A program made the translations under genes and the position numbers. DNA of 13,108 nt. Source: Alphaproteobacteria bacterium. GTDB taxonomy: Bacteria; Pseudomonadota; Alphaproteobacteria; Rs-D84. The notes under the pieces were generated by a model that did no database searches, was not told the DNA's origin, and saw only the letters and a list, made by a program, of their open reading frames with translations. Below, piece after piece: positions 10,174-11,754 of the stretch. The DNA is taken from the NCBI GenBank assembly GCA_017936185.1, contig JAGBGA010000103.1, positions 1 through 13,108 on the forward strand, read 5' to 3'. How positions within the stretch are numbered: the stretch's first letter is position 1; each line of letters starts with the position of its first letter.

Positions 10174-10683
10174 ATGACAAAGTTTCCGATTCTTTATTGG
10201 CCACGTAAGACAACTGGGGATAACGAATACCAGTTGGCACGTCAAGTTATTAACAACACAACGGGAATTATCCCAGATGTGTGTTCTGATGACACAGATA
10301 TCGCAACAATATTGGAACAAAATCCAAATGCGGTTATTTATTACCCTGTGTTTTGCGAATCGACCGGATGGTGGGGCGAATTGCTGGGCAGTGACGCAGT
10401 GGTCAGTGATAAACTGATTATTTCACCCGAATGCCAATTGATGGTTATTGAATTACATAAAAATGCGGCGTCGCGTGGTAAAAACCAACTGTTGGCGGCC
10501 GAAATTTACCCATCAAGCGGGTTCTTTAAAAAGATGAATTCGGGTATCGCAACCGTTGCAGATATGTTGGCAACAAATACGGGAACGATTTTGGCACTTT
10601 TTTCGGGCAAAAACCAAAGCCAATTTATAAATATCTTGGAATCAACCGGGAATTCGTACCTGGGTTGCATCGGTCGGTATTAA
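10174..10683 (+). CDS. Unrecognised 169-aa protein
   Basis: I do not recognise a family. The 169-aa product is soluble-looking, with no signal peptide or convincing membrane segment. Alternating beta- and helix-like stretches (for example AVIYYPVF at 53-60, KLIISPE at 80-86, QLMVIELH at 88-95) suggest an alpha/beta fold. It has Cys37, 61, 87 and 165, without CxxC spacing, and a polar middle with ESTGWWGELLG (62-72). Codon use looks like the neighbours'. The only near start is ATG 10174, placed just behind a TGATATAAT promoter and without a Shine-Dalgarno. It lies 67 nt after paralogue 5 and before rpmE, which has its own promoter, so it may be transcribed alone. A real gene is likely from its intact frame, start context and compact spacing. 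Confidence 0.7.
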   Translation: MTKFPILYWPRKTTGDNEYQLARQVINNTTGIIPDVCSDDTDIATILEQNPNAVIYYPVFCESTGWWGELLGSDAVVSDKLIISPECQLMVIELHKNAASRGKNQLLAAEIYPSSGFFKKMNSGIATVADMLATNTGTILALFSGKNQSQFINILESTGNSYLGCIGRY

Positions 10684-10706: not shown

Positions 10707-10734
10707 TTGATTTCTGTAAAAAACCTTGTATAAT
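10707..10734 (+). promoter_or_regulatory. Promoter of rpmE
   Basis: TTGATT (10707-10712), a 16-nt spacer and a perfect TATAAT (10729-10734) form the best sigma-70-type promoter in the window. Transcription would start near 10741, giving a leader of about 27 nt with AAAGG at 10755-10759. The two upstream in-frame TTG codons (10726, 10735) lie within or before this -10 and so would not be in the message. Confidence 0.7.
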
Positions 10735-10754
10735 TTGCGGGCTAAAATTCAACC

Positions 10755-10759
10755 AAAGG
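10755..10759 (+). promoter_or_regulatory. Ribosome binding site pointing to the ATA start of rpmE
   Basis: AAAGG lies 8 nt before ATA 10768 and 5 nt before ATC 10765. It is the only Shine-Dalgarno-like sequence in the leader, so it decides where initiation must occur. Confidence 0.65.
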
Positions 10760-10767
10760 TTAAAATC

Positions 10768-10980
10768 ATAAAAAAAGGAATTCATCCAGAATACCACGAA
10801 ATCAACGTCACAAGAACAGACGGCAAGACAATTAAAATGTATTCTTCTGTGAAAAAAGACTTGGTTTTATCAACAGATAACTTGAACCATTCTGCATGGA
10901 CAGGTCAACGTTCAAACGCCGGTGACAAAGGTCAACGCGCATCTGAATTTAAAAAGAAATTCGCGGGCTTTAACTTCTAA
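10768..10980 (+). CDS. rpmE: 50S ribosomal protein L31, apparent ATA start
   Basis: A 70-aa ribosomal protein L31, which sits at the central protuberance and helps bridge the subunits. It matches alphaproteobacterial L31: KKGIHPEYHEINVTRTDGK at the N-terminus, then HSAWTG and a basic end KKKFAGFNF. The zinc-ribbon cysteines of E. coli RpmE are absent, so this is a zinc-independent form. L31 proteins normally begin Met-Lys-Lys/Ser-x-Ile-His-Pro, and here the codon at the Met position is ATA (10768-10770), preceded by ATC. AAAGG at 10755-10759 is 8 nt upstream, ideal for that codon. No ATG, GTG or TTG lies between the predicted transcription start and the conserved region. Initiation at TTG 10726 or 10735 would add 11-14 residues but conflicts with the promoter. 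The start is therefore uncertain; the identity is not. Confidence 0.9.
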   Translation: MKKGIHPEYHEINVTRTDGKTIKMYSSVKKDLVLSTDNLNHSAWTGQRSNAGDKGQRASEFKKKFAGFNF

Positions 10981-11021: not shown

Positions 11022-11726
11022 ATGGAATTGTTAATAAAAGGTTCAACCGAATTAAACAAAATGTTTATGGCGTTGCAACGCACTGCATCGGGTTTGCGTC
11101 GCGATTTTGGCGAAGTTGAAAACCTGCAACAATCGTTGCGTGGGGCACGTGATTTCGTACAAAAAGCGGCAAATCGAATCGAAGAAAGTATTTTAAGCGA
11201 CTTGTTGTTGGTTCGTCCGGCGGCGGGTTTGTTGACACCAAATGTTTCACGCGTCGGTGATGGACGCGATGAATTTGTGTTGGCACTGTCGGGGGCGTCA
11301 AATTTTGTTCGCGGAAATCCGCATTTCGCAATTTCGTTGGCACTTCGTTCAAATGACGAAACGAAAATTGCGTTGGTATATTCACCAATTGATGAACGTC
11401 TTTATTATGCCGAAGCGGGCAATGGCGCATATGTATTTTCGGCATATCATTCGGCACGTATAAAGGTTTCAAACCAAAAAGAACAAGGCGATTTAACCGT
11501 TGCATATAATACATCTGATGCGCGGCCGATTATTGGTGATGTTCGTCGCACAGGATGCCCGGCACTTGATTTGGCGTGGGTGGCGGCCGGAAAATTTGAT
11601 GCATATGTATCAGACCCATTGGATTTTGCAGAAATTGCCGCAGGTGACTTGATTGTTCGTGAAGCCGGCGGACATATCGAAATGATGGCCGACCTGGTCG
11701 CGACAAATGGCAAGATAGAGTTATAA
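11022..11726 (+). CDS. SuhB/inositol monophosphatase-fold protein, catalytic residues lost
   Basis: A 234-aa protein aligning by eye over its whole length with SuhB/IMPase enzymes: LRRDFGEVENLQ (25-36), PHFAISLAL (100-108), VYSPIDERLYYAEAGNGAYV (119-138), RRTGCPALDLAWVAAGKFDAYV (175-196) and IAAGDLIVREAGG (205-217). The fold is kept, but the Mg2+ ligands are not. The usual GEE motif is replaced near LLTPN (70-74), the DPLDGT motif reads LALSGA (87-92), and the late WD of WDIAAG reads AE in FAEIAAG (202-208). The early motif with Asp reads AANRIEE. Dephosphorylation of inositol phosphate is therefore improbable. E. coli SuhB has a second role as a Nus factor in rRNA antitermination, and a non-catalytic role of that kind is a reasonable inference. 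ATG 11022 is chosen for GGGGGG 7 nt upstream. It lies 41 nt after rpmE, probably co-transcribed, and ends at a strong terminator. Confidence 0.85.
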   Translation: MELLIKGSTELNKMFMALQRTASGLRRDFGEVENLQQSLRGARDFVQKAANRIEESILSDLLLVRPAAGLLTPNVSRVGDGRDEFVLALSGASNFVRGNPHFAISLALRSNDETKIALVYSPIDERLYYAEAGNGAYVFSAYHSARIKVSNQKEQGDLTVAYNTSDARPIIGDVRRTGCPALDLAWVAAGKFDAYVSDPLDFAEIAAGDLIVREAGGHIEMMADLVATNGKIEL

Positions 11727-11754
11727 AAAATCCCGCAAACGCGGGATTTTTTTT
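11725..11754. terminator. Bidirectional intrinsic terminator
   Basis: A 12-bp stem, AAAAAATCCCGC and GCGGGATTTTTT, around an AAAC loop, flanked by A-tract and T-tract so that it works on either strand. It ends the rpmE-suhB unit and the convergent pnp-ybaB unit. The T-tract overlaps the ybaB stop codon (11753-11755), and the A-tract overlaps the last stop base of the SuhB-like gene. Confidence 0.93.

Follow-up and report, generated by a model that had tools for sequence, protein, structure and literature searches.

A SuhB orthologue of Candidatus Enterousia maintained without the catalytic metal ligands: a putative pseudoenzyme with a possible structural role in rRNA synthesis

Why would a bacterium with a reduced genome keep a SuhB protein whose catalytic acids have been replaced? 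The question is raised by a suhB-like gene in a 13,108-nucleotide stretch of DNA (the window), which constitutes an entire contig (C19) of a draft genome (786 kb, 71% complete). Named near relatives share up to 92% protein identity and come from gut MAGs, some of whose records bear the name Candidatus Enterousia. The window host is Candidatus Enterousia, a gut alphaproteobacterium with a reduced genome. Excerpts of a 2025 paper (PMC12306168) place Enterousia in the GTDB order Rs-D84 and describe reduced genomes and a probable symbiotic or parasitic life.

The suhB-like gene and the features that bear on it are located in the window as follows.

10726..10980, plus strand: rpmE, encoding ribosomal protein L31 (PF01197, 58.2 bits), directly upstream of suhB
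11022..11726, plus strand: suhB-like gene of a putative pseudoenzyme of 234 residues (PF00459, 95.5 bits on the frame starting at TTG 11007)
11100..11129, plus strand: RDFGEVENLQ motif (residues 27–36), a signature of alphaproteobacterial SuhB
11232..11243, plus strand: LTPN (residues 71–74) replacing ITEE, with the loss of E. coli E67 and E68
11280..11297, plus strand: LALSGA (residues 87–92, aligned as L-ALSGA) replacing IDPLDGT, with D84 deleted and D87 changed to S
11628..11633, plus strand: AE (residues 203–204) replacing WD, with D212 changed to E
11725..11753, plus strand: putative intrinsic terminator after suhB, a hairpin followed by a T run (fold −19.7 kcal/mol, z −5.3)

The open reading frame begins with ATG at 11022, ends with TAA at 11726 and is preceded by GGGGGG at 8–13 bases ahead of the start codon. 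Its product belongs to the inositol monophosphatase family by the PF00459 profile, for which the cut-off is 27 bits, and aligns with E. coli SuhB at 30% identity over 227 columns (BLASTP, E 2e-26). The NCBIfam equivalog model of inositol-1-monophosphatase (PRK10757) gives 81.5 bits, below the required 332 bits. Among solved structures, the best match by sequence is 3luz, annotated as extragenic suppressor protein suhB (3.6e-34, or 1.5e-99 with a 57-row profile). A protein search scored 8000 candidates and yielded 2465 of them at E ≤ 1e-30; the best 120 of these 2465 are solely close relatives with 89–95% identity and, where a name is given, are called hypothetical protein or inositol monophosphatase. 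The terminator at 11725..11753 is absent from the list of a consensus terminator scanner. A promoter scan of the window returned four sites against 3.9 expected, and Rfam gave no match in the window.

The active site was compared with that of E. coli SuhB, in which we take D44, E67, D84, D87 and D212 to be the active-site acids and the last four to be the catalytic metal ligands of SuhB and IMPase. The alignment bears out the original prediction that GEE, DPLDGT and WD have given way to TPN, LALSGA and AE. Among the 69 genus members (66 from the genome search and three from a later search), position 67 is P in 67, S in one and T in one, and position 44 varies (A in 34, S in 29, E in four, T in one and I in one). 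The D84 gap and the D87 serine occur in 69/69 genus members and in 17/17 members from other genera of the Enterousia family. S90, A92, A203 and E204, at E. coli positions 87, 89, 211 and 212, are invariant in the 69. Across 86 family members, which comprise the 69 and the 17 from nine further genera (the frame-broken G183 included), none of the five E. coli acids is kept in any sequence. The claim that all visible ligands are lost thus stands as far as identity is concerned, but not to the letter, as one acidic side chain stays as Glu at position 212 in every genus member. Neither realignment with MAFFT (111 sequences, later 131, with E. coli among them) nor BLASTP against E. coli SuhB restores an acid at a shifted position. 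With the metal site gone, the protein has almost certainly also lost phosphatase activity, as judged from these replacements.

In the protein tree, seven IMPase paralogues split from all SuhBs (SH-aLRT 88). A pattern of the RDFGExExLQ type, degenerate and derived from the very sequences on which it was tried, is present in 129/129 alphaproteobacterial SuhBs and 0/7 paralogues and is absent from E. coli SuhB. Judged from its tree placement and this motif, the window protein is an orthologue of alphaproteobacterial SuhB. A second, catalytic SuhB was also sought, and 64 of the 66 suhB-bearing genus genomes contain no other PF00459 protein. In the other two, G035 and G036, an intact-looking IMPase paralogue accompanies suhB, and G064 has a paralogue alone, with no suhB. 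The acidic pair and the DPxDG(T/S) and WD motifs look intact in the paralogues of G035, G036, G064, G074 and G082, one of the two G074 paralogues being split over two frames. The ligand loss therefore appears specific to the SuhB line.

Selection on the gene was estimated from pairwise Nei–Gojobori dN/dS values, using pairs with 0.1 < dS < 1.2 and reading both neighbours from stop to stop. An open suhB frame was found by the query search in 66 of the 70 genus genomes, which rules out chance or a single faulty read as its origin. The median dN/dS of suhB is 0.120 (276 pairs, 66 genomes); the value for rpmE is 0.118 (506 pairs, 66 genomes), and that for the other neighbour, the open reading frame at 10174–10683, is 0.141 (219 pairs, 62 genomes). 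Because its dN/dS of 0.12 is similar to that of rpmE, suhB appears maintained rather than decaying, in agreement with the earlier reading of the gene, and the SuhB of Enterousia is on these sequence data probably a maintained pseudoenzyme. The adjacency to rpmE likewise extends beyond the window: in all 66 genus loci fetched, rpmE immediately precedes suhB on the same strand. The frame was also said to be full length, which is correct for its own family, although the protein ends about 16 residues before the end of E. coli SuhB.

Several further observations concern the surrounding DNA. The rpmE frame as listed begins with a TTG just before a TATAAT word, 15 codons ahead of the L31 domain, and contains no ATG or GTG between that TTG and the domain, leaving the start codon ambiguous. 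The 169-residue open reading frame at 10174–10683 has no Pfam or NCBIfam match and lies upstream of rpmE in 62/66 genus loci. Between 3465 and 10106, five large open reading frames resemble membrane proteins, four on the minus strand and one on the plus strand; the plus-strand frame, nearest to rpmE and suhB, is present in 61/66 genus loci. None of the five has a Pfam match over cut-off, nor a PHROGs match among those scanned, and visual inspection suggests a likeness to secretion membrane proteins of the VirB6/TrbL type.

With the active site gone and the protein kept, catalysis looks dispensable, and SuhB presumably serves something other than chemistry, probably the production of rRNA. A precedent exists in E. 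coli, in which the effects of suhB mutation are relieved without the need for SuhB phosphatase activity, according to excerpts of PMC6614801; the statement that the Nus role of E. coli SuhB is independent of catalysis agrees with this source. The same excerpts describe SuhB as binding the AR2 domain of NusA through K251 and L254, binding RNA, either boxC itself or the stretch separating it from boxA, and being required for NusB/E entry. In excerpts of PMC4807359, the ChIP association of SuhB with rRNA is described as NusB-dependent. Excerpts of PMC10250234 present the SuhB dimer as a hub in contact with NusA, S10 and NusG and call E. coli boxA necessary and sufficient for the rRNA complex, and boxA-dependent control of suhB itself is described in part of PMC5725501.

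The partners of this complex are unevenly preserved in Enterousia. NusA (TIGR01953) was detected in 68/70 genus genomes, the copy of G065 being a fragment, and its C-terminal repeats (TIGR01954) in 67/70. Rho was found in 68/70, with fragments in G034 and G065. NusB was searched for in the 70 genus genomes and 48 others. The TIGR01951 model detects it in 41 of the 118 genomes, comprising 41/48 outside the genus and 0/70 in it. A custom profile built from 18 NusBs of the order and class matches 43/48 non-genus genomes, those 18 being counted among the 43, and misses G070, G077, G083, G110 and G111. Applied to the 70 genus genomes at E values up to 10, it gives no credible match; one hit in a 66-residue frame (E 0.07) was attributed to chance. 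Each search begins with a word-based prefilter, at which a very diverged NusB could be lost. Outside the genus, a degenerate SuhB stands beside a detectable NusB in 10/11 genomes of the sister family f4 and in 1/1 of f5, which argues that the loss of the active site and the loss of NusB were not one event.

The rRNA leader was analyzed in the 16 genus genomes with a usable leader, out of 17/59 with a 16S match; the leader of the 17th (G035, with a partial 16S) reads the same as judged by eye. Twelve plasmid-borne rRNA operons of other alphaproteobacteria served as controls. The boxA core is absent from 16/16 Enterousia leaders, although its flanks remain. TTTGACA occurs in 8/12 control leaders versus 0/16 Enterousia leaders. 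Within up to 400 bases, the best match to TTCTTTGACA in the controls has no mismatch in three, one in six, two in two and three in Azospirillum. In Enterousia it has two mismatches in six leaders and three in ten, like letter-shuffled Enterousia leaders, of which 696/800 give two or three. The boxA core abuts CATTGT directly in the Thalassospira, Tistrella and Sphingobium controls. In Enterousia, the linker CATTGTnAATAAAAGCAG, located just after the old boxA place, is kept in 16/16 leaders, and the final paired base of a predicted leader hairpin lies exactly three bases before CATTGT in 16/16, which leaves no room for a boxA core. Folds were also predicted for seven control leaders, six from alphaproteobacteria and one from E. 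coli. A hairpin followed by an 11–12 base gap and then boxA ACA is seen in Thalassospira and E. coli alone, and in the remaining five the predicted pairing extends into boxA or near it, so that the evidence from the hairpin is confined to the Enterousia leaders.

The 16S–23S spacer contains another [CT]ATTGTnAATCGGTTT element, again lacking the core, in 15/15 genomes with a full spacer, and the leader is predicted to pair with the spacer over 8–11 consecutive bases in 15/15 testable genomes. Two boxA-like words are conserved elsewhere in the Enterousia leader, GCTCATCAAA and aaCTTTGACt, the CTTTGAC of the latter lying inside a palindrome; boxA may have been relocated, with GCTCATCAAA or the CTTTGAC word as its replacement. 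Other elements of the leader (L343–L358) are strongly conserved too, for example AGCTCATCAAA, which is followed by a variable insert in some genomes, and the palindrome TTTGACTAAGTCAAA.

Enterousia SuhB lacks the C-terminal segment in which the NusA-AR2 contact of the E. coli protein lies. Among the contact residues, K251 is found in 0/69 and L254 in 1/69 genus members. The respective counts among catalytic alphaproteobacterial SuhBs are 1/23 and 7/23, and since both residues are mostly absent there too, the loss of this contact is weak evidence.

Taken from these sequences, the absence of detectable NusB and of the boxA core means that the tie to the role of E. coli SuhB may be broken. A maintained pseudoenzyme acting outside transcription, for instance in ribosome assembly next to L31 or by binding another protein, is plausible without being probable. 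Such a protein would go with the failure to find NusB (70/70), the missing boxA core (16/16), the missing AR2-contact segment and the constant presence of a ribosomal protein gene, rpmE, as its neighbor; it would leave unaccounted for the retention of Rho and of NusA with both C-terminal repeats and the conservation, in 16/16 leaders, of the RNA after the old boxA place. The preferred reading, that Enterousia SuhB is a structural factor of rRNA transcription or ribosome assembly working without NusB and boxA, merits middling confidence.

In this structural reading, SuhB would be kept for a job of the folded protein. The likeliest job would be the non-catalytic one of E. coli SuhB, namely that of a scaffold on RNA polymerase transcribing rRNA, which would touch NusA, S10 (whose presence, like that of NusG, is assumed) and the leader RNA and would aid both the synthesis and the folding of rRNA. 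The complex would be stripped down, lacking NusB and the boxA core but retaining the hairpin that precedes the former boxA site, the RNA that immediately follows that site and the leader–spacer helix. The retained parts (the SuhB fold, the NusA repeats, the linker RNA and the leader–spacer helix), together with the losses, would fit such a reduced scaffold. A more specific version, in which a rewired rRNA complex of non-catalytic SuhB, NusA, S10 and RNA downstream of the old boxA has replaced the NusB–boxA module, is possible but rather doubtful. We infer three things from the sequences: the lack of activity, the role in rRNA synthesis and the action of SuhB without NusB. The original prediction that only the transcription role survives is accordingly upheld in part. 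The missing catalytic site, the sole PF00459 protein, purifying selection, orthology and the presence of the NusA repeats suit it, but an unchanged survival of the known role is at odds with the lack of NusB (0/70), of the boxA core (0/16) and of the AR2-contact segment.

It is unlikely that Enterousia SuhB retains enzyme activity through an altered metal site or a different chemistry. Such an enzyme could use the invariant E204 and S90 (69/69) and their neighbors, and the sister family f4 keeps D87 in 10/10 and D212 in 8/10. In 69/69 genus members, however, D84 is deleted and S replaces D87; P replaces E67 in 67/69, and no replacement acid cluster is seen in the alignment. The other families of the order, moreover, have lost different subsets of the acids. 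SuhB was obtained from 17 of 18 genomes of the order outside the Enterousia family, with the second IMPase of G074 set aside as a paralogue. The number of acids kept is one to three in f4 (10 sequences), one in f2 (two), none in f5 (one) and none or one in f6 (three). G071 (f3) keeps all five and has the sole fully intact SuhB among the order genomes sampled.

The position of G071 bears on the number of losses. In the NusA tree, G071 (L068) is sister to the degenerate f6 (SH-aLRT 100), a placement that would call for two or more losses within the order. In the SuhB tree, all degenerate proteins of the order group together with G071 outside (97). A single loss would fit the SuhB tree and conflicts with the NusA tree; long-branch attraction or gene transfer is a possible source of the conflict. 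In the class outside the order, 30 genomes were covered and 26 SuhBs were fetched, with matches in G088, G094 and G116 left unfetched and no SuhB match in G106. All five acids are present in 23/26. The remaining three, from G095 (L110), G104 (L109) and G108 (L098), keep one or two of the five and were set apart post hoc, once their sequences had been seen. With most ligands lost in these three genomes, such losses may have occurred repeatedly within the class.

Two observations touch on the integrity of the gene. In one family genome, G183 (L303), the suhB frame is broken in the C-terminal third, either in reality or through an assembly error. Six genus genomes lack suhB (four of the 70 and two more found later), and rpmE is missing from all six, so that an assembly or binning gap (a missing contig) is likelier than gene loss. 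Slow decay of the gene within a reduced genome, to which the G183 break and the six genomes showing neither suhB nor rpmE could be ascribed, is highly improbable, being already largely refuted by the dN/dS of 0.12 over 276 pairs and the open frame in 66/66 and left with likely assembly or binning gaps for its six absences.

Comparison with known SuhB proteins sets the Enterousia protein apart. E. coli SuhB, whose structures are presumably PDB entries 6ib7, 6tqn and 6tqo, shares the fold and family at 30% identity, and the catalysis-independent role is established there. E. coli, however, retains the catalytic site, the C-terminal segment, NusB and boxA, whereas Enterousia has none of the five ligands, and neither NusB nor the boxA core was detected in the genus. 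Alphaproteobacterial SuhB, with 3luz as the best solved relative, is an orthologue and shares the RDFGExExLQ motif; it differs in having the five ligands in 23/26 class SuhBs, against none in Enterousia, in which the C-terminal segment is also missing. The M. tuberculosis SuhB has the IMPase fold, and in excerpts of PMC2080633 Mg2+ loading of its active site promotes dimerization. Since Enterousia SuhB has no metal site, in contrast to this metal-promoted dimer, any dimer of it must form without such a site. In the portions of the open-access PMC literature covered, no report was found of a SuhB lineage that lacks the catalytic ligands, or of rRNA operons in the Enterousia group that do without NusB and boxA.

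The Enterousia family presents a natural separation of the two lives of SuhB, in which the active site has been lost and the protein kept in a lineage of at least ten genera, with strong selection on SuhB measured in one genus, Enterousia. This lends weight to the idea that what matters about SuhB is not its chemistry. That neither NusB nor the boxA core was found in Enterousia makes it directly testable whether SuhB and NusA serve rRNA transcription without the element called "necessary and sufficient" in E. coli. If the rewired complex is real, the structural role of SuhB would have outlived both its enzyme activity and the classical recruiting signal.
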